From positions 1 through 56,523 of the forward strand of contig JAHFUS010000020.1 of assembly GCA_023264975.1 (NCBI GenBank): 56,523 bases of DNA. The letters run 5' to 3'. The notes under the pieces are model-generated. The model worked only from the letters and a program-made list of their open reading frames with translations. It was not told the origin of the DNA and ran no database searches. This stretch comes from Actinomycetes bacterium (GTDB taxonomy: Bacteria; Actinomycetota; Acidimicrobiia; Acidimicrobiales; GCA-2861595). Both the position numbers and the translations under genes were made by a program. This document shows positions 24,962 through 36,945 of the stretch, in pieces; within the stretch, counting starts at the first letter, position 1, and each line of letters opens with the position of its first letter.

Positions 24962-25053
24962 CGTTGTCCTATCGGCGCCCGTCGGCCCGATCTGGAGCAC
25001 CGTTCGCAACCTGTCAGCGGTTGGGCGGCCGGGGTCGGTAACCTCGCGAAGAA

Positions 25054-25767
25054 GTGAGCGCCGCCAACGTCGACGTGATCCGCTGGGGTCGGGAACGGGT
25101 GCGCACCGGGCCATGGCGGGGTGACCACGACGTGGCCTACCTGACGCCACTCCCCGATGCGCCACTGCCCTCGGCCCAGTTCGTGCGCCGCTGCCTCGAT
25201 CAGCTGGCCGCCCGGGGTTTCCGGCGGGTGATCACGTCCGCCCTCTCACCGGCCGAGCAGGCCGGTTTCCTGGGCGCCGGCTTCGAGGTCCACGAACGTC
25301 TGCATCTACTCGAGCACGACCTCCACGACGTGCCCAGGGCCGACGTGTCGGCCTTGCGCCGGGCCGGGGCGGACGACCACGCCAGCGTGCTCACGGTCGA
25401 CGGACGGGCCTTCCCGACCTTCTGGCGCATCGACGAGAACAGCCTGGGCGAGGCACTCAATGCCACCCCCAACAGCCGCTTCCGGGTGGCCACGATCGAC
25501 GCCAGGGTGGTCGGGTACGCCGTCACCGGCCGGGCCGGCCGGCGGGGCTTCCTCCAGCGCCTCGCCGTCGACCCCGACGAGCAGCGCCGGGGCCTCGGTC
25601 GGGCGTTGTGCGTCGACGCCCTGCGCTGGTTGCGGCGGTGGCGGGTCGAGCAGGCGGTCGTGAACACACAGATGGGCAACGAGGCGGCGCTCACCTTGTA
25701 TGAGAGCCTCGGCTTCCGGCGGGAGGCGGCCGGCCTCTCGGTGCTCAGCGCCGCCCTCGAGCGATGA
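25054..25767 (+). CDS. GNAT family N-acetyltransferase
   Basis: 237 residues from GTG at 25054. The GNAT fold is in the C-terminal half: FRVATIDARVVGYAVTGRAGRRGFLQRLAVDPDEQRRGLGRALC has the Q/RxxGxG/A acetyl-CoA loop, and NEAALTLYESLGFRREA closes the fold. The N-terminal half (VRRCLDQLAARGFRRVITSALSPAEQAGFLGAGF) is a second, degenerate GNAT-like half. The acceptor is unknown. Its stop overlaps the next start as ATGA, so it heads a coupled run GNAT-DUF6049-murJ-TadE-like. Confidence 0.82.
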   Translation: MSAANVDVIRWGRERVRTGPWRGDHDVAYLTPLPDAPLPSAQFVRRCLDQLAARGFRRVITSALSPAEQAGFLGAGFEVHERLHLLEHDLHDVPRADVSALRRAGADDHASVLTVDGRAFPTFWRIDENSLGEALNATPNSRFRVATIDARVVGYAVTGRAGRRGFLQRLAVDPDEQRRGLGRALCVDALRWLRRWRVEQAVVNTQMGNEAALTLYESLGFRREAAGLSVLSAALER

Positions 25768-27758
25768 TCGGCCGCCGCCGAGCGCGGCGCCCTCCGCTCT
25801 CGTTCCTGGCTGTCCTGGCCGTCGCCATCGGGCTCCCCTTCGTCGGCGGCGGCCTGGTCGCAGGGGCCCAGGAGTCGGGCAGCCTGCTGCGCCTCGCCTC
25901 CCAGACGACGTGGGTCGGCCCAGGCGAGGAGCTCGTGCTGCGTCTCAACGTCACCACTTCAGAGGCGCCGGCCGACGTCGAGCTGGCGGTGGCCGTCTAC
26001 CGTCGGGTCACCAGCCGGTCCGAGTTCACCCGCACCATCGACGACGGGCCGCGCGGCAACCCGGTCACCGTCGTGCCGCCGGCCAAGCTGGCCGACCTGG
26101 CCACCGACGTCGGCGGCGCCCTGGTGGTACGCCTGCCGATCCAGGACCCGGTGGCGCCAGCCGACGCGGCCCGCCTGCGCCTCACCACCGAAGGCGTCTA
26201 CCCCGTGCGGGTAGAGCTGCGGCGGACGGGCGGGGGGACGTCGCTCGCCAGCCTGGTGACCCACCTCGTCTACACCCGGCCGCCGCAGCCCGGCGGCTTC
26301 CCGCTGGGCGTCGCCTTGGTCCTGCCTGTGCACGCGCCGCCCGCCCTGGCGCCCGACGGCACCCGCGCCCTGGCCAACCGGACAGCGACCGCCCTGGGCG
26401 CCCTGGCCTCGTCGCTCGAGGCCTATCCGAACGTGTCGCTCACCCTGCTCCCGACGCCCGAGACGCTGGTATCGCTCGACACCAGCGGCCGGGCCCGGGA
26501 CCGGGAGACGGTGGCTGCGCTGGCCCGGGCCACCACCGACCGGCAGGTGGCCGCCGGCACCTACGTCCCCGTGTCCCTGTCCTCGTTCGCCGCATCCGGG
26601 ATGGCGCCGGAAGCGGCGATCCAGCTCGACCGGGGCAGTGAGGTGATCGAGCAAACCCTCGGCAAACGGCCCGAGCTGCGCACGTGGGTGGCGGAGGATG
26701 GGCTCGACGAGCGGGCCGCCCTGCTGCTCCGCCAGCAGCAGGTGGACCGCCTCGTCCTGCCGGAGGAGGCCCTCGAACCGGCCAAGCTGGCCATCACCCT
26801 CACCCAGCCCTTCGAAATCGACGCCCGGGCCGTGCGCCGCCCGCTCGCCCTGGCCGCCGACGTCGGCCTGGCCGCCCACTTCAAGCCGGCCGACGACCCC
26901 GTGCTGGCCGCCCACCGGCTGCTGGCCGACCTCGCCGTCGTGTACCAGGACCAGCCCAGCCGCCTCCGCGCCGTTGTCGTCGTGCCGCCGAGGTCGTGGC
27001 AGCCCGACCGCGCGTTCCTCGACTCCCTGCTGAGCGGTCTCACCACGTCGGCGATCATGAAGGGCACGATGGTGGAGGACGCGTTCGACGTGCCGCCCGC
27101 CACCACCACGGGGGGCGCCCCCCTCGTCCGCCGGCTGGCGCCCGGTCCCGCGCCCCAGCCCCTTCCGGTGGGGGACATCACGGCGGCGCGGCGCCAGCTC
27201 GTCGGCTTCGCCAGCATGCTGACGCCCGACAACGCCCTCGACGACGCCATGGAGCAGCTCCTGTTGGTCGGCGAGGGCGCCGGGCTCAAGACCGGCCGAC
27301 GCCAGGACTTCCTCGACGCCATGCTCGACCGGATCCACTCCCAGACCGATGCGGTGCAGGTCCCGAGTCACCGCTCCATCACCCTCACCGCCCGCACCGG
27401 CGAGATCCCGGTCACGATCCTGTCCAGGACCGGCTACCCCCTCAAGGTGGAGATCCGGGTGGCCAGCGACAAGCTCGACTTCCCCAAGGGGTCGGTCCGC
27501 AGCGTCGACCTCGACCGGCGCAGCACCACCGAGCGCTTCTCGGTGAAGGCCCGCACGTCGGGGTCGTTCCCGCTGCGGGTCAGCCTGCAGTCGCCCGACG
27601 GCGCCCTCGAGCTCGGCACCAGCCGCTTTACCGTCCGCTCCACCGCCGCTTCCGGCGTCGGCGTGGTGCTGTCGGTGGGCGCCATGGCCTTCCTCCTCGT
27701 GTGGTGGGGGCGCCACATGGTGCGGGGCCGGCGGAACCGCCGGCTGGTGCCGGCGTGA
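25764..27758 (+). CDS. DUF6049 family secreted/membrane-anchored protein
   Basis: 664 residues. A signal sequence (RRRARRPPLSFLAVLAVAIGLPFVGGGLVAGAQ) leads to a long extracellular part with beta-rich ends and a middle that resembles a polysaccharide-deacetylase-like barrel (LPVHAPPALAPDGTRALA, YPNVSLTLLPTPETLVSL, RTWVAEDGLDERAALLLRQ). One transmembrane helix (GVGVVLSVGAMAFLLVWWG) and a basic tail end the chain. The protein upstream of murJ in mycobacteria (Rv3909 position) has this architecture. It is coupled to murJ by a GTGA overlap, so a role in peptidoglycan precursor traffic or its control is likely, though no activity is known to me. Confidence 0.82.
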   Translation: MIGRRRARRPPLSFLAVLAVAIGLPFVGGGLVAGAQESGSLLRLASQTTWVGPGEELVLRLNVTTSEAPADVELAVAVYRRVTSRSEFTRTIDDGPRGNPVTVVPPAKLADLATDVGGALVVRLPIQDPVAPADAARLRLTTEGVYPVRVELRRTGGGTSLASLVTHLVYTRPPQPGGFPLGVALVLPVHAPPALAPDGTRALANRTATALGALASSLEAYPNVSLTLLPTPETLVSLDTSGRARDRETVAALARATTDRQVAAGTYVPVSLSSFAASGMAPEAAIQLDRGSEVIEQTLGKRPELRTWVAEDGLDERAALLLRQQQVDRLVLPEEALEPAKLAITLTQPFEIDARAVRRPLALAADVGLAAHFKPADDPVLAAHRLLADLAVVYQDQPSRLRAVVVVPPRSWQPDRAFLDSLLSGLTTSAIMKGTMVEDAFDVPPATTTGGAPLVRRLAPGPAPQPLPVGDITAARRQLVGFASMLTPDNALDDAMEQLLLVGEGAGLKTGRRQDFLDAMLDRIHSQTDAVQVPSHRSITLTARTGEIPVTILSRTGYPLKVEIRVASDKLDFPKGSVRSVDLDRRSTTERFSVKARTSGSFPLRVSLQSPDGALELGTSRFTVRSTAASGVGVVLSVGAMAFLLVWWGRHMVRGRRNRRLVPA

Positions 27759-29380
27759 GGCCACGGGGCACCGCCGTCGACGACACCGACGGCCTGGGCC
27801 GGGGCGGGGCCGACCGGCCCAGCCTGGCCCGCAGCACCGCGGTCATGGCGGCCGGCACGCTGGCGTCGCGCATAACCGGGTTCGCCCGGCTGAGCGCCCT
27901 GGCCTACGCCCTCGGCTTCACCCGCCTCACCGACAGCTACAACCTGGCCAACATCACCCCCAATATCATCTACGAGCTGGTCTTGGGCGGGGTGCTGTCG
28001 GCCACCCTCCTTCCGGTGTTCGTCGATCGTCTGTCGGGCGGGCGGGAGGAAGACGACGAGGCGTGGCGGGCCATCTCGGCCGTCTTCACCGCCGTCGCCG
28101 CCCTCCTGGTGGTGGTCACCGCCGCGTTCATGATGATCGCCCCGGTGCTCGTCCGCCTCTACACGCTGGGAAACAACACCCCGTCGGTGGGCGAGCAGCG
28201 CGTCGTCGCCACCAGCCTTCTGCGCATGTTCGCCCCCCAGGTCGCTCTGTACGGGATGATCGCCGTCGTCACCGCCGCCCTCCACGCCCGTCGCCGCTTC
28301 GGGGCGACGATGTTCGCGCCGGTGCTGAACAACCTGGTGGTCATCGGCATGCTGCTCGCCCTTCCCCATGTGGTGGACGACGTGTCGCTCACGGGCGTGC
28401 GCAACGACGCCGGCGCCCGGCTGCTGCTCGGCCTCGGCACCACCGCCGGCGTGGCCGCCCTCGCCGTCGCCCTGCTGCCGGCGCTGCGGGGGGCGGGCGC
28501 ACGCCTGCGACCAGTGTGGGACCCCGGCCACCCGACCGTGCGCACCATCGTGCGCCTGTCGGGTTGGACCTTCGGCTTCGTGGCCGCCAACCAGGCCGCC
28601 CTCATGGTGGTGCTGGTGCTGGCCAACGGGAAGGCGGGCGACGTGGCCGCCTACCAGGCCGGCCTGGTGTTCTTCCTGCTCCCCCATGGCGTGTTCGCGG
28701 TGTCGGTGATGACCGCCCTCCAGCCCGACGTGGCCGAGCGCTGGGCCCTCGGCGACGTCGCCGGCTTCGGACGGCGGGTGGGCAAGGGCCTGCGCACCAT
28801 CGGTGCCGTGGTGGTGCCGGCCGGAGTGGGGTACCTGTGCCTGGCCCATCCCATCGTGCGCGTCGCCCTCGAGCACGGCGCTCTGCGTTCGACCTCGGCG
28901 TCCACCACCGCCGGCGTGCTGGCCATGCTCGCCATCGGCCTGCCCGGCTTCAGCGCCTTCCTCTTCCTGGTGAAGTCGTTCCAGGCCATGCAGGACACCC
29001 GGTCCGTGTTCTTCCTCTACCTGGTGGAGAACGGGCTCAACGTCGTGCTAGCCGTCGCCCTGTACCCGTCCCTAGGCGTGCAGGGTCTGGCCCTCGCCTA
29101 CGCCCTCGCCTACACGGGCGGGGCAGCGGCCGCGCTGGTAGTCCTACAGCGACGCACCAAGTCCGTCGATACCGCCTTCGTGGTCCAGACGTGGGTCCGC
29201 GTCGGCCTGGCCAGCGCAGTGATGGCGGGCGTAGTGTCCGTCCTGTCGGCGGTGGTCGAACCGGCGCTGCTGCGGGCCATCGTCGGCGTTCTCGCCGGCG
29301 GAACGGTCTATGTCCTCGTCGCCCGGCGCCTTGGGGTCCAGGAGCTGTCGACACTCCTTCCGATGCGGAGACGCCTGTGA
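27755..29380 (+). CDS. murJ: Lipid II flippase MurJ (MviN family)
   Basis: 541 residues from GTG at 27755, GTGA-coupled to DUF6049. About 14 membrane helices are present. Family signatures include STAVMAAGTLASRITGFARL, FTRLTDSYNLANITPNIIYELVLGGVLSATLLPVFV, and SFQAMQDTRSVFFLYLVENGLNVVLAVAL. MurJ moves lipid II across the membrane for wall synthesis. In mycobacteria the homologue is fused to a C-terminal pseudokinase and extracellular domain. Here MurJ ends after the membrane part (LLPMRRRL), and a separate kinase gene with an extracellular domain lies 1.3 kb on. Confidence 0.94.
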   Translation: MRPRGTAVDDTDGLGRGGADRPSLARSTAVMAAGTLASRITGFARLSALAYALGFTRLTDSYNLANITPNIIYELVLGGVLSATLLPVFVDRLSGGREEDDEAWRAISAVFTAVAALLVVVTAAFMMIAPVLVRLYTLGNNTPSVGEQRVVATSLLRMFAPQVALYGMIAVVTAALHARRRFGATMFAPVLNNLVVIGMLLALPHVVDDVSLTGVRNDAGARLLLGLGTTAGVAALAVALLPALRGAGARLRPVWDPGHPTVRTIVRLSGWTFGFVAANQAALMVVLVLANGKAGDVAAYQAGLVFFLLPHGVFAVSVMTALQPDVAERWALGDVAGFGRRVGKGLRTIGAVVVPAGVGYLCLAHPIVRVALEHGALRSTSASTTAGVLAMLAIGLPGFSAFLFLVKSFQAMQDTRSVFFLYLVENGLNVVLAVALYPSLGVQGLALAYALAYTGGAAAALVVLQRRTKSVDTAFVVQTWVRVGLASAVMAGVVSVLSAVVEPALLRAIVGVLAGGTVYVLVARRLGVQELSTLLPMRRRL

Positions 29381-29733
29381 TCACCGGCTGGCTCATGAAG
29401 ATCGTCGTCAGCTTCGTGCTGGTGGGCGTGCTGCTGGCGGAGCTCGGCGCACCACTGGTGACGCGCGCCCAGATCGACGGGGTGGCTCACGACGCGGCCG
29501 ACACCGCCGCCCTCGACCTGCTGGACCACAACGACCTCGAGCGCGCCCGCGCCGCGGCCCAGGAGATCGCCGACGACAAGGACGTCGTCCTCGAGAGCTT
29601 CACCGTGGACAACCGTGGCTTGCGGGTCACCGTGGCGCGCCAGGCCTGGTCACTGGTGCTGAAGAAGTGGGACAAGACCAAGACCTGGTATGACGTGCGG
29701 GTCACGGCAACCGCCAGCACGGCGAAACGCTGA
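29377..29733 (+). CDS. Small exported TadE/TadG-like protein
   Basis: 118 residues from GTG at 29377, GTGA-coupled to murJ. One N-terminal helix (LMKIVVSFVLVGVLLAELGAPLV) is followed by a segment resembling TadE/TadG proteins: VAHDAADTAALDLLDHNDLERARAAAQEIADDKDV, then beta strands (VVLESFTVDNRGLRVTV). Such proteins are minor pilin-like subunits or parts of a Flp-type system. No tad genes are near. It may be a small partner of the murJ block. The family assignment is tentative. Confidence 0.6.
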   Translation: MITGWLMKIVVSFVLVGVLLAELGAPLVTRAQIDGVAHDAADTAALDLLDHNDLERARAAAQEIADDKDVVLESFTVDNRGLRVTVARQAWSLVLKKWDKTKTWYDVRVTATASTAKR

Positions 29734-29752: not shown

Positions 29753-30592
29753 ATGAGCGGTGTCCGGATTGTCGCCGATACGGCCAGCGACCTTCCTCCT
29801 GAGGTGGCCACCGCCCACGGCATCGAGCTGGTGCCTCTCACCGTCCGCTTCGGCGCCGAGGAGCTGGTCGACCGGCGCGACCTCACGCCCGCCGACTTCT
29901 GGTCCCGGCTGGCCGCCTCGTCGGTGCTGCCCTCCACGGCGGCCCCGTCGCCCGGCGCCTTCGAGGAGGCCTACCGGCGGGCGGCAGCCGACGGCGCCGA
30001 CGGCGTGGTGTGCGTGACCATCTCGTCGGCCCTGTCGGCCACTTTCGAGGCGGCCCGCCTGGCGGCCGACTCGGTGAAGGACACCATCGACGTGCGGGTC
30101 GTCGACTCGCGCGCGGTGAGTATGGCCGAGGGCACGGTGGCCATCGCCGCCGCCGGCCTGGCCGCCGCCGGCAGAAGCCTCGACGACGTGGCCGCGGGCG
30201 CCGCGGCCATGGTGCCCCGCACCCGCACGTTCGCCGCCCTCGACACACTCGACAACCTGCGCAAAGGGGGCCGCATCGGCGCCGCCCAGGCCCTGCTCGG
30301 CTCCATGCTGTCGATCAAGCCGATCATCCAGGTGGCGGGCGGCAAGGTGGAGGCCGAGTCCAAGCAGCGCACACGCGGCAAGTCGCTGCGCTACCTGGCC
30401 GACAAGGTGCACGAGGCCTCGCCGGTGGATCACCTCACCGTGATGCACGGCGGCGCCCCCGATGTCGACGCCCTGCTCGACCTGCTCGCCGACGTGTGCC
30501 CACGCGACAAGATCACAGTGGCCGACGTCGGGGCCGTGATCGGTACCCACGCCGGGCCGCGCGTCATCGGCGTCACCTTCGCCGTCCCGTAG
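29753..30592 (+). CDS. DegV family fatty-acid-binding protein
   Basis: 279 residues from ATG at 29753, after GAGGAG at 6 bases. The DegV pattern is clear: VRIVADTASDLPPEVATAHGIELVPLTVRFG, then PSTAAPSPGAFEEAYRRAA, VVCVTISSALSATFEAARLAA, DSRAVSMAEG, and LRKGGRIGAAQALLGSMLSIKPI. Family members bind a fatty acid, and some (FakB) feed fatty acids to the FakA kinase. No fakA is in the window. Confidence 0.93.
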   Translation: MSGVRIVADTASDLPPEVATAHGIELVPLTVRFGAEELVDRRDLTPADFWSRLAASSVLPSTAAPSPGAFEEAYRRAAADGADGVVCVTISSALSATFEAARLAADSVKDTIDVRVVDSRAVSMAEGTVAIAAAGLAAAGRSLDDVAAGAAAMVPRTRTFAALDTLDNLRKGGRIGAAQALLGSMLSIKPIIQVAGGKVEAESKQRTRGKSLRYLADKVHEASPVDHLTVMHGGAPDVDALLDLLADVCPRDKITVADVGAVIGTHAGPRVIGVTFAVP

Positions 30593-30649: not shown

Positions 30650-32161
30650 GTGCCCGAACCGCTCCCCCTGATCGACCGCGTCCTGGTGGGCCGGTACCGC
30701 GCCACCCGGCTGATCGCCCGGGGCGGCATGGCCGAGGTGTGGGAGGCGTACGACGACGTGCTGGCCCGGCCGGTGGCGGTGAAGGTCCTGCTCCCCCACC
30801 TGGCGGTGGACGACGCCTTCGTAGCCCGGTTCCGCCTGGAGGCCCAGGCCGCCGCCCGGCTCGGGCATCCTGGCATCGTGGCCACGTACGACACCGGTAC
30901 CGACGGCGACCTGGCCTTCATCGTGATGGAGCTGGTGCCTGGCCACACCCTGCGCGACGCGGTGGAGAAGGCGGGCACGCTGCCGCCGTCGATGGCCGTC
31001 TCCATCGCCGCCGAGGTGGCGGACGCCCTCGACCACGCCCACCGCGAGGGCCTGGTCCACCGGGACGTGAAGCCGGCCAACATCCTTCTCGTCCGCCGCG
31101 AGGTCGAGGACACCGCCCCCCTGCTGCGGGTGAAGGTGGCCGACTTCGGCATCGCCAAGCTCCAGCCCAGTGCAAACGCCACCGTGGCCAGCCTCACCCA
31201 GACGGGCGCGGTGGTGGGCACTGCCCGCTACCTGTCGCCCGAGCAGGTGAAGGGCGACCCGCCCGACGCCCGGTCGGACGTCTACGGGCTTGGCGTCGTG
31301 CTCTACGAGATGCTGTGCGGTAAGCCGCCGTTCAGCGCCGAGACGGAGCTGGCCACCGCCCTGCTCCATGTGCGGGAACCCCCGCCGACGTTGCAGCGCG
31401 GCACCGGTGAGATCCCTGCCCCCCTCGAGGCGGTGGTCATGAAGGCCCTGGCCAAGGAGCCCCACGACCGGTACCCGTCGGCCGCCGCGCTGCGCGACGC
31501 GCTGCTGGCCGTCGACCTGGCGCCACCCGACGACGCCGTGCCCCAGGTCGTCCGGGAGACCACTCCCGCCTCGGGGACGCCGGCGCTGGCCCGTCCGCCG
31601 GCCCGTCGCCTGCTCCCCCTCGCCGTGGTGGCGGCGGTGGCGGTGGCCGCTGTCCTGCTGGTGGCCGTGCTGGCCGACCGGGACAGCAGCGGCCCCAATG
31701 GCAAGGCCGCGGCCGGGGCCACGGACGCGACCAAGGCTTCCGTTATCGCCGTGCACTCGTTCGACCCGGCGGGCGACGGTGAGGAGAACGAGCCACGAGC
31801 CGCCCTGGCCGCCGACGGCAACCCGGCCACCAGCTGGAACTCCGACCGGTACAAGACACGGGCGTTCGGCGGACTGAAGCCCGGCATCGGGCTGGTGCTG
31901 GAACTCGACCAGGCGGCCGACGTGGCCGCCATCACCGTGACGTCGGCCACGTCGGGGTGGTCGGCCTCGGTGTACGTGGCCGACCAGCCGGCCGGCGACC
32001 TGGCCGGCTGGGGTGAGCCGGTCGCACAGAAGTCCGACATCACCGGCGACGCCGAGTTCGACCTCGGCGGCAGGAGGGGCGCCACCGTGCTTTTGTGGAT
32101 CACCGACCCCGGGACGGCCAACCGGGTCGAGGTGGCCGAGGTCGCGGTACGCCACTCGTAG
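30650..32161 (+). CDS. Transmembrane Ser/Thr protein kinase with an extracellular discoidin-like domain
   Basis: 503 residues from GTG at 30650. A full kinase domain is present: Gly loop IARGGMAEVW, K45 in VAVKVL, E64 in the C helix, H137RDVKPAN, D165FG, TARYLSPEQ and SDVYGLGVVLYEML. All catalytic residues are kept, so it should be active. A juxtamembrane linker leads to one transmembrane helix (about 321-341) and an outside domain of 140 residues resembling the F5/8-type fold (NPATSWNSDRY, GLVLELDQAADVAAITVTS). In mycobacteria a pseudokinase plus such a domain is fused to MurJ. Here it is separate and looks active. Likely targets are wall-synthesis proteins nearby (CwlM, MurJ). Confidence 0.9.
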   Translation: MPEPLPLIDRVLVGRYRATRLIARGGMAEVWEAYDDVLARPVAVKVLLPHLAVDDAFVARFRLEAQAAARLGHPGIVATYDTGTDGDLAFIVMELVPGHTLRDAVEKAGTLPPSMAVSIAAEVADALDHAHREGLVHRDVKPANILLVRREVEDTAPLLRVKVADFGIAKLQPSANATVASLTQTGAVVGTARYLSPEQVKGDPPDARSDVYGLGVVLYEMLCGKPPFSAETELATALLHVREPPPTLQRGTGEIPAPLEAVVMKALAKEPHDRYPSAAALRDALLAVDLAPPDDAVPQVVRETTPASGTPALARPPARRLLPLAVVAAVAVAAVLLVAVLADRDSSGPNGKAAAGATDATKASVIAVHSFDPAGDGEENEPRAALAADGNPATSWNSDRYKTRAFGGLKPGIGLVLELDQAADVAAITVTSATSGWSASVYVADQPAGDLAGWGEPVAQKSDITGDAEFDLGGRRGATVLLWITDPGTANRVEVAEVAVRHS

Positions 32162-32290
32162 CCGGCCCGCCGGCGCCGGGTACGGGATCTCTCGCCGGAG
32201 CGTGAGATTCGTCAACCGAGAAGGGCCCGGCGGCCGCGTCGAGGACGCCGGCAGGCGGGCGATGGTGGCCTACGCTTCGCCGCATCGACC

Positions 32291-32880
32291 ATGGGGCCGG
32301 GGACCGAGAGCTGGCTGAGGCGGCGCAGGCGGGCGACCAGGGCGCCCTCGACCAACTGCTGCGCCGCCACGTCGACCGCCTGCACGCGCTGTGCCGGCGC
32401 ATCCTGGGCTCCGACGCCGACGCCGACGACGCCACCCAGGAGGGCCTCATCGCCATCGCCCGGGCCCTGGCCGCCGGCCGGTTCGACGGGCGGGCCAGCT
32501 TCGCCACGTGGGCCTACCGGGTCACCACCAACGCCTGCCTCGACGAGCTGCGGCGCCGGGGGCGGCGGGCGGAAGCGGTCACCGACGAGCGGCTCGAGCG
32601 CAGCCTGAGCGGGCCCGGTGGGACGGGCGCGACCGGCGGCCCGGATGCCGCTGTGGCCGACCGGGTCGACGTGGAGGCCGCCCTCGCCCGCCTCCCGCTC
32701 GACTTCCGGGCCGCCGTGGTGCTCCGCGACCTGTGCGGCCTCGACTACGCCGAGATCGCGGAGGTCCTGTCCATCCCGGCCGGTACCGTGCGATCGCGTA
32801 TCGCGCGAGGCCGAGCCGCCCTTGTGCCCCTCCTCGGGAACCAGTCGCCCCCTGCCAACCGTCCAACTGCACGCCCATGA
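32291..32880 (+). CDS. ECF RNA polymerase sigma factor (SigM-like); 5' end probably frameshifted
   Basis: Region 2 reads LLRRHVDRLHALCRRILGSDADADDATQEGLIAIARAL, with RASFATWAYRVTTNACLDELRRRGRR. Region 4 reads LPLDFRAAVVLRDLCGLDYAEIAEVLSIPAGTVRSRIARGRAAL. It is thus a complete group 4 sigma factor, at the position of mycobacterial sigM. In this frame there is no ATG, GTG or TTG between a TGA at 32203 and region 2; the first is at 32653, inside the gene. The ATG at 32291 is in another frame and joins correctly if one G is added to the GGGG run at 32299-32302. A sequencing or assembly deletion is the simplest reading; a true frameshift or a non-standard start is possible. Confidence 0.75.
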
Positions 32881-34245: not shown

Positions 34246-34590
34246 GTGGCCCAGCCGGGAGATGCCCCGCGCCCTGCCGTCGGGGGCACCGACTGGACCG
34301 CCCAGGCAGCCGACACCATCGAGCGGGTGGTCACCGGCATCCGGGACAAGACCTCGGGCCGGCTGATCACCTTCGTCCGGGTGCTGGTGTACGGGCTGCT
34401 GGCCGCCGTGATGGGCACCCTCATCGCCATCCTCGCCACGATCAGCGCCATCCGTGCCCTCACCAACTACGGGTTCCGTGGCCACGTGTGGGCGTCGTAC
34501 CTGTTCGTGGGCGCAATATTCGTGACCTTCGGGACGTTGCTGCTCCGCAAGGCATCGTCGACAAAGAGAAAGAAGAGCCGGAGATCGTGA
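34246..34590 (+). CDS. Small membrane protein coupled to trxB
   Basis: 114 residues from GTG at 34246. The N-terminal half is amphipathic ([33 protein letters not shown]). Two membrane helices follow ([19 protein letters not shown] and [18 protein letters not shown]), and the chain ends in a strongly basic tail ([14 protein letters not shown]). It overlaps trxB by GTGA. The layout resembles actinobacterial phage-holin-like/DUF proteins near trxB, but I cannot name the family. Confidence 0.65.
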
Positions 34591-35576
34591 GCAGCGAGAC
34601 CCGCGAGGTCATCATCATCGGGTCCGGGCCGGCCGGCCTCACGGCCGCCGTCTACACGGCCCGGGCCAACCTGCACCCCCTGGTCATCGAGGGCGAGCCG
34701 TCGTCCACCAGCGACCAGCCCGGCGGCCAGCTCATGCTCACCACCGAGGTCGAGAACTACCCCGGTTTCGTCGACGGCATCCAGGGGCCCGAGCTGATGC
34801 GCAACTTCCGGGCCCAGGCGGCCCGCTTCGGGGCCGAGCTGGTCACCTCCAAGGTCACCCGGGTCGACTTCTCGGTGCGCCCGTTCAGGGTCTGGATCGG
34901 CGACGCCGAGCTCGAAGCCCAGACCGTCATCGTGTCCACCGGCGCCCGGGCCCTGATGCTCGGCCTCGAAAGCGAGGAGCGCCTCATCGGCTACGGCGTC
35001 TCCACCTGCGCCACCTGCGACGGGTTCTTCTTCCGGGACCTCGAGATCGCGGTGGTGGGCGGCGGCGACTCCGCCCTCGAGGAGGCCATCTTCCTCACCA
35101 AGTTCGCCAGCAAGGTCAGCGTGATCCACCGCCGCAAGGAGCTGCGGGCGTCGAAGATCATGCAGGACCGGGCCTTCCGGAACCCCAAGATCGAGTTCGT
35201 CTGGGACTCGCAGGTGGTCGACGTGCTGGGCGAGACCACGGTGGACGGCGCCAGGGTGCGCAACGTGGTGACGGGCGAAGAGACGGTGCTCCCCATCTCC
35301 GGCCTGTTCGTCGCCATCGGCCATGTGCCCAACACGTCGATGTTCACCGGCCAACTCGACATGGACGAGGCCGGCTACCTGCTCACCCGACCCGGGTCCA
35401 CCCGCACCAACGTCGAAGGCGTGTTCGCCTGTGGCGACGTGCAGGACTCCACCTACCGCCAGGCCATCACCGCCGCCGGCTCCGGCTGCATGGCGGCCAT
35501 CGACGCCGAGCGCTGGCTCGAGAGCCAGGAAGACGCCCCCGCCGATATCGCCGACGAGACACCCCGCACCTGGTGA
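34587..35576 (+). CDS. trxB: Thioredoxin-disulfide reductase
   Basis: 329 residues. The FAD site is [20 protein letters not shown], the redox pair is C141ATC144 ([13 protein letters not shown]), the NADPH site is [12 protein letters not shown] with HRRKELRAS, and the C-terminal FAD motif is [27 protein letters not shown]. It uses NADPH to reduce thioredoxin in the cytoplasm. It begins with a GTGA overlap and is followed by trxA after 32 bases. The order sigma, anti-sigma, trxB, trxA, cwlM matches mycobacteria. Confidence 0.97.
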
Positions 35577-35608
35577 CACCCGTCACCATCCAGGAAGGAA
35601 GCGCCACC

Positions 35609-35941
35609 GTGGCCGAACCCACCAACATCACTCACCTCACCACAGACACCTTCGACGAGGAGGTCGCCGGGTCCACCGAACCACTGCTGGTGGACTTCTG
35701 GGCCGAGTGGTGCGGGCCGTGCAAGATGATCGCCCCGATCCTCGACGAGATCGCCGGCGAGCACGCCGGCAAGATCCGGATCGCCAAGCTCAACACCGAC
35801 GAGCACCCCGACATCGCCCGTCGCTTCGACATCCTCAGCATCCCCACCCTCATCCTGTTCAAGGACGGCGAGCCGGAGCTGCGAATCCGCGGCGCCAAGG
35901 GCAAGGGCCAGCTGGTCCAGGAGTTGCAGGCATTCCTGTAG
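35609..35941 (+). CDS. trxA: Thioredoxin
   Basis: 110 residues from GTG at 35609, chosen because AAGGAAG lies 7 bases before it and the length is then normal. A GTG at 35573 (GTGA overlap with trxB) would add 12 residues. The active site is FWAEWCGPCKMIAPIL, with the cis-Pro loop in SIPTLILFKDGEP. It is the electron carrier reduced by TrxB. Confidence 0.96.
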   Translation: MAEPTNITHLTTDTFDEEVAGSTEPLLVDFWAEWCGPCKMIAPILDEIAGEHAGKIRIAKLNTDEHPDIARRFDILSIPTLILFKDGEPELRIRGAKGKGQLVQELQAFL

Positions 35942-35952
35942 GCGGCCTGCCG

Positions 35953-36945
35953 GTGCTCGCCGGCCACCGTGGTGAGGCCGTGCGCGACCTCCAGCATCGC
36001 CTGGGCAGCCTCGGCCACCCCACCACCGGCGACGAGCCAGGCACGTTCGCAGCCGCCACCGAGGCCGCCGTCCGAGCCTTCCAGCTCAGCCGCGGCCTAC
36101 GGGTCGACGGCATCTGCGGGCCGCAGACCTGGTCGACGTTGGTGGAGGCGGGCTGGCGGCTGGGCGATCGCCACCTCTACCTGCGCCAGCCAATGCTGCG
36201 GGGCGACGACGTGGCCGCCCTCCAGAGCCGCCTGGGCGCCCTCGGGTTCGACGCCGGGCGGGTCGACGGGATCTTCGGGCCGGACACCAAGCGGGCGCTC
36301 GACGAATTCCAACGCAACATCGGCATCGTGGTCGACGGCATCTGCGGGCTCGGGACCCTCGCCATGTTCGAGCGCTTCGGCCAACGGGGCGCCGGGCGCC
36401 AGCCCGTGGCCGCCGTCCGTGAAGCGGAGCTGCTGCGCCAGGCGCCGCGCACGCTGCAGGGACGGCGGGTCGTGCTGGCCGACAGCGGCGGCCTGCACGC
36501 AGTGCTGCGCGCCACCGAGCGGGTGCTCACGGCGGCGGGGGCCGACGTCACCGTCGTGCGCCACCCCGACCAGTCCGACCAGGCGGCCGAGGCCAACGCC
36601 GCACGGGGCGACGTGTTCCTCGGTCTGCGCCTGGAGCCGGGAGCCGACGGCTGCACCTCGGCCCACTACGCCGGGCACCGCTACGAGTCGGCGGGCGGGC
36701 GGCGGCTGGCCGAGCTGGTGCAGTCGATCGTGCCCGAGGCAGTGGACATCGGTGATGGCGGCGTGAAGGGTATGGCCATCGCCGTGCTGAAGGAGACGCG
36801 CATGCCGGCCGTCGTGTGCGACCTCGGCCCGCCGTCGCACGTGGTGGCGCACACCGCCGAGCTGGCGGTCGCCCTGGGCGCCGTCTTCGCTGCCTGGGTG
36901 GAGTCGCCTGTCGAGGAGGTGGCGGCGGCCACACCCGAGGGCTGA
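35953..36945 (+). CDS. cwlM: CwlM-like protein: two peptidoglycan-binding domains and a degenerate amidase_3 domain
   Basis: 330 residues from GTG at 35953. Two PG_binding_1 domains come first (VRDLQHRLGSLGHP to GICGPQTWSTLVEAG, and VAALQSRLGALGFDAGRVDGIFGPDTKRALDEFQ). The amidase_3 fold follows from RVVLADSGGLH. The family's zinc ligands are not in place: the usual DPGHGG is ADSGGL, the usual SIHAN is GLRLEP, and the final Glu region reads VVCDLGPPS. It should therefore be inactive as a hydrolase. Mycobacterial CwlM is a cytoplasmic activator of MurA controlled by phosphorylation, and no signal peptide is visible here either. The kinase 4 kb upstream is a candidate partner. Confidence 0.88.
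   Translation: MLAGHRGEAVRDLQHRLGSLGHPTTGDEPGTFAAATEAAVRAFQLSRGLRVDGICGPQTWSTLVEAGWRLGDRHLYLRQPMLRGDDVAALQSRLGALGFDAGRVDGIFGPDTKRALDEFQRNIGIVVDGICGLGTLAMFERFGQRGAGRQPVAAVREAELLRQAPRTLQGRRVVLADSGGLHAVLRATERVLTAAGADVTVVRHPDQSDQAAEANAARGDVFLGLRLEPGADGCTSAHYAGHRYESAGGRRLAELVQSIVPEAVDIGDGGVKGMAIAVLKETRMPAVVCDLGPPSHVVAHTAELAVALGAVFAAWVESPVEEVAAATPEG

Follow-up and report, generated by a model that had tools for sequence, protein, structure and literature searches.

A free receptor Ser/Thr kinase with intact catalytic motifs is probably the unfused form of the pseudokinase module linked to MurJ in mycobacteria

In mycobacteria, the MurJ homolog Rv3910/MviN carries a pseudokinase and an extracellular domain in one chain. 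In the 56,523-nt stretch of DNA analysed here (the window; contig JAHFUS010000020.1 of an Acidimicrobiia genome), a free murJ and a separate gene for a kinase with an outside domain lie in one cluster, which raises the question of whether the two arrangements are related and, if so, which of them came first. Our analysis indicates that the window protein is probably a single-pass receptor Ser/Thr kinase, the free and intact form of the module that is dead and MurJ-fused in Rv3910/MviN.

The genes of the cluster (Table 1) are ordered pcnA (reverse strand), DUF6049, murJ, a small transmembrane (TM) protein gene, degV, the kinase gene, sigM, an anti-sigma factor gene, a small protein gene, trxB, trx and cwlM (all forward), and parB and parA (both reverse). 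This is the order of the oriC-proximal actinobacterial cluster, which in M. tuberculosis contains Rv3909-Rv3915. As had been predicted, MurJ is encoded by a separate gene and is not joined to the kinase; the fusion to the MurJ C-terminus that marks MviN/Rv3910 was found in a single family (f33) only. The position of the kinase gene (the slot, DUF6049-(murJ)-(degV)-kinase-sigM-trxB-trx-cwlM) is conserved across about 20 families. Because dozens of genomes have this protein in this slot, chance can be ruled out as the origin of the kinase-ectodomain protein. Of 38 loci with a live (catalytically intact) kinase, 17 had no murJ upstream of the kinase gene, and in the genomes checked murJ lay elsewhere.

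Table 1 Features of the kinase locus in the window
Feature	Position	Strand	Remarks
DUF6049/Rv3909-like envelope protein	25764..27758	+	Conserved upstream gene
MurJ lipid II flippase, free	27734..29380	+	TIGR01695, 5.1e-82; 5-aa tail past profile end
Small one-TM protein	29377..29733	+	4-nt overlap with murJ; no Pfam family
DegV (FakB-like) protein	29753..30592	+	
Receptor Ser/Thr kinase with CBM32/discoidin-like ectodomain	30650..32161	+	503 aa; GTG start; one intact ORF
Kinase domain (residues 15-286)	30692..31507	+	Catalytic motifs complete
R15, presumed dimer face	30692..30694	+	
L38, presumed back-to-back dimer face	30761..30763	+	Aligns with MviN L750
K45, VAVK lysine	30782..30784	+	42/42 live slot kinases; 0/30 fully degraded
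D81, presumed dimer face	30890..30892	+	Aligns with MviN D793
D139, HRD catalytic Asp	31064..31066	+	0/30 in fully degraded copies
D165, DFG Asp	31142..31144	+	
T183, activation-loop Thr	31196..31198	+	Aligns with PknB T171; invariant in 42 live slot kinases; none in fully degraded
Juxtamembrane linker (residues 287-321)	31508..31612	+	Low model confidence; no T-[DE]-x-[IL] FHA-docking motif
Single TM helix (residues 322-344)	31613..31681	+	Basic flank on its N-terminal side, placing the kinase inside and the CTD outside
C-terminal extracytoplasmic domain, CTD (residues 362-503)	31733..32158	+	Discoidin/CBM32 fold; AF2 model, structure matches, profile A1
SigM-like ECF sigma factor	32272..32850	+	Extent approximate; followed by presumed anti-sigma factor
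TrxB	34575..35576	+	
Thioredoxin	35573..35941	+	
CwlM (PG_binding_1 + Amidase_3)	35983..36945	+	No PTGTFTF phosphotail

Several further observations were made on the cluster and its genome. The small TM protein recurs after murJ in many genomes, and in many genomes of the same order (L118, L119, L123, L126, L127 and others) the kinase-ectodomain gene is still in place with murJ out of the cluster. The DegV/FakB-like gene was found upstream of the kinase in 23/38 live loci versus 3/24 dead ones, a difference that may reflect lineage alone. No Rfam element was detected between positions 25000 and 38000 of the window. Elsewhere, the genome encodes a second, divergent MurJ homolog (G000:C106:6607-7998), and an unusual protein with a predicted Ser/Thr kinase domain, an insert before the HRD motif and downstream S1 RNA-binding domains (L005:1189-2862 on G000:C22).

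The Pkinase profile PF00069 matched residues 17-281 of the window kinase (1.4e-44, Pfam), and the nearest solved structures to its kinase domain in the PDB comparison were mycobacterial PknB (240 bits) and PknA (205 bits). K45, D139 and the Asp of the DFG motif (D165), which the original prediction had read as retained, were all confirmed, together with E64, K141 and N144, and all six residues are invariant across 25 aligned relatives. The hallmarks of the MviN/Rv3910-type pseudokinase (ActPs3), namely degraded VAIK, HRD and DFG motifs with a deletion in the activation loop, are thus not those of the window kinase, in which every one of these elements is intact. Judged by its motifs, the window kinase is presumably an active enzyme.

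In the full-length AF2 model (pLDDT 85.5), a flexible linker and a single TM helix join the kinase domain, whose activation loop is disordered, to a compact domain at the C-terminus. A TM helix was found in every slot protein compared. Modelled alone, the CTD reached a pLDDT of 97 and a pTM of 0.91, and the model matched CBM32/discoidin folds with Z scores of 13-15.6 over 116-129 residues. The top structural match was the chitosan-binding module 4zz5 (Z 15.6, rmsd 2.2 over 123 residues), followed by the CBM32 of AlyQ (Z 15.3), and Foldseek also matched the domain to such folds (1.5e-7). The CTD therefore has the discoidin beta-sandwich fold by both AF2 and structure comparison, and the predicted discoidin-like outside domain, separated from the kinase by one TM helix, was borne out. 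Its sequence identity to solved structures was 9-21%. No Pfam or NCBIfam family was found above cut-off, and all carbohydrate-binding families in Pfam stayed below theirs; the nearest were CBM_AftD (the CBM of the arabinofuranosyltransferase AftD; 9.5e-5) and F5/8C (0.14), and among relatives the best match to F5_F8_type_C was 6.5e-4, again short of the gathering score. The fold suggests that the ligand of the CTD is a glycan.

Scanning whole proteins of named genomes returned mostly generic kinases, none of them with a CTD. When the CTD was used as the query, it was present in 60/119 genomes of the same class, and 38 of the 40 loci fetched around CTD matches contained recognisable neighbouring cluster genes. 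The CTD profile A1 matched in 137/296 genomes of the phylum, MurJ-fused proteins among them. It found the ectodomain of one such protein (L177) with an E-value of about 5e-24, and the pseudokinase of the same protein scored about 430 bits against the M. tuberculosis MviN pseudokinase structures (3OUN, 3UQC and 3OTV). Because a profile led from the window reaches the MurJ-fused protein, the free kinase and the mycobacterial fusion carry homologous ectodomains. The window protein also shares the C-terminal layout of MviN/Rv3910, a TM helix followed by a carbohydrate-binding-like ectodomain. Common descent with the slot family, fused proteins included, is indicated by the kinase tree (with weak support, 78/34), the locus tree and the shared ectodomain, so that the proposed kinship with the mycobacterial MurJ-pseudokinase-ectodomain protein holds.

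A grouping of the kinase domain within PknA, PknB or PknL would have spoken against this kinship, and it did not appear in the phylogeny that had been called for. PknA (100/98), PknL (100/100) and the PknB core (100/96) each formed a group without slot kinases. In the best tree, 45 of the 48 live slot kinases grouped together (support 89/87) and three rows of family f61 fell outside; uniting all 48 in one clade was not rejected (p-AU 0.57) and gave a slightly better likelihood. Some of the 48 (L184, L197, L168 and L215) are partly degraded and were retained because they could be aligned over the whole domain. Once degraded sequences entered, support for the slot clade was 78/34, the deep kinase branches being only moderately supported, and all slot proteins, fused ones included, lay on one side of PknA, PknB, PknL and the others. 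Joining the window kinase alone to each Pkn clade was rejected in AU tests (p 0.004-0.049), which count for little since they also split it from its close partner L117. A window kinase nested in PknA, PknB or PknL was not found in any of the kinase trees. In addition, it fails the PASTA kinase model NF033483 of NCBIfam (363 bits versus a cut-off of 450) and has no PASTA match.

The slot contains live, dead and fused forms, judged by their catalytic motifs in a sample of a few dozen families. Their history was read from an unrooted tree of seven neighbouring genes, in which 42 rows were free and live, 28 free and dead, and 6 dead and fused to MurJ; neighbouring genes were used to count losses because long-branch clustering seems to affect the kinase trees that include degraded sequences. 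One dead clade lies in the window's own class and has V-x-V/I-R, HG-x-I-D and [GA][FY]G in place of the catalytic motifs, with the activation loop deleted, and dead forms also occur in large-genome families (f28). On the seven-gene tree the live/dead label changed 8 times, and the starred branches require 6 or more of these changes, indicating that catalysis was lost at least about six times with the gene kept. Placing all dead rows in one clade was rejected by the neighbouring genes (p-AU 8e-51) and, for the dead copies, also by the CTD tree (p-AU 0.015), and a single loss of catalysis was thereby ruled out.

In the neighbour-gene tree the fused forms came out as a single group (100*) surrounded by free dead ones, and they were similarly nested in the kinase tree. 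Catalytic motifs are presumably lost far more easily than regained; given this, the free live kinase would be ancestral, death would have been repeated, and fusion would have come last and once. The single origin of the fused form among free dead ones points to the same ancestral state, free and live. With the tree unrooted, the ancestral-state call rests on the loss argument. Of the original idea of an ancestral, unfused and live kinase, the unfused and catalytically intact condition and its ancestry were upheld, but there was no simple step from live to fused. Death preceded fusion, recurred, and mostly took place without fusion; to judge from the sequences, catalysis was lost first, and fusion with MurJ followed later in one family.

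The dead copies also reveal what the slot protein keeps. The 41 positions that are invariant in live slot kinases were checked in 30 fully degraded copies. R15, D35, L38, R40, V42 and D210 were kept in 100% of them and D81 in 73%, missing only from the dead clade of the window's own class; K45, D139, K141, T183 and T191 were kept in none (0/30). R15 and L38 were present in all live, dead and fused copies. L750 and D793 of MviN, with which L38 and D81 align, are reported to be contacts of its back-to-back dimer (PMC12599244), and PknB is known to form dimers of both the back-to-back and the face-to-face kind (PMC6333020, PMC6428115). Since R15, L38 and D81 are near-universal in the compared non-slot kinases as well, the telling point is their survival after catalytic death.

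This pattern makes scaffolding a serious rival, in which the main job of the protein, despite its intact motifs, would be to recruit partners through ligand-driven dimerisation, phosphotransfer being dispensable. The repeated deaths with the gene kept are what give this reading weight, and the retained dimer face of the degraded copies fits it as well. A further case is a protein (L206, G008:C12) that consists of a TM helix and the ectodomain, occupies the slot position upstream of trxB and has apparently lost its kinase domain completely. However, the catalytic residues and the activation-loop Thr stayed invariant over long divergence in the live lineages, which implies selection for catalysis there, and we regard scaffolding as the main role of the window protein as unlikely.

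The CTD itself is mobile, and it raises a second alternative: an ordinary PknB- or PknL-like kinase could have gained a mobile glycan-binding domain by shuffling, its nearness to murJ being incidental to the mycobacterial fusion. The domain was found on kinases outside the slot (L169-L173, L186-L188, L194-L196 and L203), which lie near PknB, PknL and PknF-like types, so the ectodomain by itself is no proof of orthology. It also follows an O-antigen-ligase/TPR-like membrane protein (L208, G163:C1), where it is close to that of L188 from the same genome; its occurrence outside kinases and this likeness indicate mobility. In a genome of the mycobacterial family (G148), a second, PknF-like kinase (L180) has an ectodomain closest to that of the genome's own MurJ fusion, an apparent in-genome domain transfer. 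The frequent absence of murJ upstream of live kinases likewise suits shuffling. Against it stand the conservation of the slot from DUF6049 to sigM/trxB/cwlM in about 20 families, the clustering of the slot kinases, and the fact that the fused pseudokinases join the slot pseudokinases in the kinase tree too. Shuffling is therefore an improbable origin for the window protein.

CwlM and MurJ had been named as likely targets of the kinase, a claim that fared less well. In mycobacteria, T382 in the CwlM tail NDRPTGTFTFAELLA is phosphorylated by PknB, and it is the unphosphorylated form of CwlM that binds the linker of MurJ (PMC6180346). The corresponding PTG[TS][FY]TF tail was found in 6/6 MurJ-fused genomes (L177, L178, L179, L181, L182 and L183, the MurJ-fusion family) and in 0/46 other CwlM loci scored, including that of the window; MurJ fusion and CwlM phosphotail may have arisen together. 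MurJ of the window has no cytoplasmic linker or extension, and the T-[DE]-x-[IL] motif (T947-type FhaA docking), which was visible only in fused linkers, was looked for in the linker of the window kinase and was absent. With no phosphotail, no MurJ linker and murJ often elsewhere, the two targets are unsupported by known sites, and the confinement of the PTGTFTF tail to the fused family removes them as evident substrates by that route. Direct action of the kinase on other sites in CwlM or MurJ is possible.

The same evidence bears on whether the window kinase is the local equivalent of PknB and, like its mycobacterial counterpart, phosphorylates CwlM and MurJ. The presence of cwlM and murJ in one cluster and of FhaA in the genome (C66) would suit such a role, but the CwlM tail with the PknB sites and the cytoplasmic extension of MurJ are missing, a T947-like docking site was seen only in fused linkers, and the genome already encodes a separate PASTA kinase (L001), so we consider it doubtful that the kinase takes the place of PknB. 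Least probable is a secondary live state, with catalysis regained or the ancestral pseudokinase replaced by transferred live genes: although unrooted counts alone cannot separate gain from loss, K, D, DFG, APE and the activation loop would all have had to be rebuilt several times, and the live slot kinases track the neighbour-gene tree, with order and class groups recurring in both trees.

With the window protein taken as a free and intact receptor kinase, the most likely working scheme is one drawn by analogy with PASTA receptor kinases. The outside CBM32/discoidin-like domain would bind an envelope glycan, whereupon the kinase domains would meet through the conserved N-lobe face (R15, L38 and D81). 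The activation loop would then be autophosphorylated at T183, and the activated kinase would phosphorylate cytoplasmic partners in envelope synthesis. Activation by dimerisation is presumed from the same analogy, and a role in cell-wall synthesis seems likely.

More tentatively, the slot beside sigM/trxB/cwlM may be a natural series in pseudokinase evolution, in which a glycan-sensing receptor kinase lost catalysis independently at least six times with the dimer face and sensor kept, apparently lost its kinase domain once, and was tied to MurJ once. If so, the core function under selection would be to dimerise or to act as a scaffold, under ligand control, at the cell-wall machinery, and the MviN-FhaA switch of mycobacteria would have come late, as a rewiring that accompanied the MurJ linker and the CwlM phosphotail. 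At least about six independent catalytic losses in one slot provide rare material on what pseudokinases keep and why.

Unfused kinases downstream of mviN are already known. According to the legend of S6 Fig in PMC10166564, a 'protein kinase family protein' often lies downstream of unextended mviN in Actinobacteria; these kinases have the same position as the window kinase and are very probably the same set of proteins. The text consulted says nothing on whether they are catalytically intact, on the homology of the ectodomain or on the direction of evolution, and the extended (mviN-fused) pseudokinase is reported only from organisms with an arabinogalactan layer. Our search of the open-licence literature turned up no account of the live state, of a CBM32-like ectodomain common to both forms, of repeated decay, or of MurJ fusion occurring together with the CwlM tail. 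A 2025 review states that other ActPs3 proteins are without the carbohydrate-binding-like domain (PMC12599244). The free pseudokinases found here carry the ectodomain, although they may not all count as ActPs3, which suggests, against the review, that this MviN domain is not confined to mycobacteria.

Compared with the PASTA receptor kinases PknB and StkP, the window kinase has the closest PDB kinase-domain sequence (the PknB match above), the single-pass layout, the activation-loop Thr and the dimer face in common, but it has a CBM32-like ectodomain instead of PASTA repeats and lies outside the PknB clade. With CBM32, F5/8 type C domains and the AftD CBM, its CTD shares the fold and weak sequence matches to CBM_AftD and F5/8C; it differs in its low identity to solved structures and its scores below the Pfam gathering thresholds. 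With Rv3910/MviN (ActPs3), the window protein shares the gene slot beside sigM-trxB-trxC-cwlM, a homologous ectodomain after one TM helix, and L38/D81 as the equivalents of L750/D793. Unlike Rv3910/MviN, it has intact kinase motifs, is not fused to MurJ, and comes without the T947-type FhaA-docking site, the cytoplasmic MurJ linker and the CwlM phosphotail, which suggests that it was in the mycobacterial lineage that the PknB-CwlM-FhaA-MurJ circuit came together. The MurJ pseudokinase of mycobacteria, which takes part in controlling an essential cell-wall step, thus gains an ancestor-like living relative that can be assayed.
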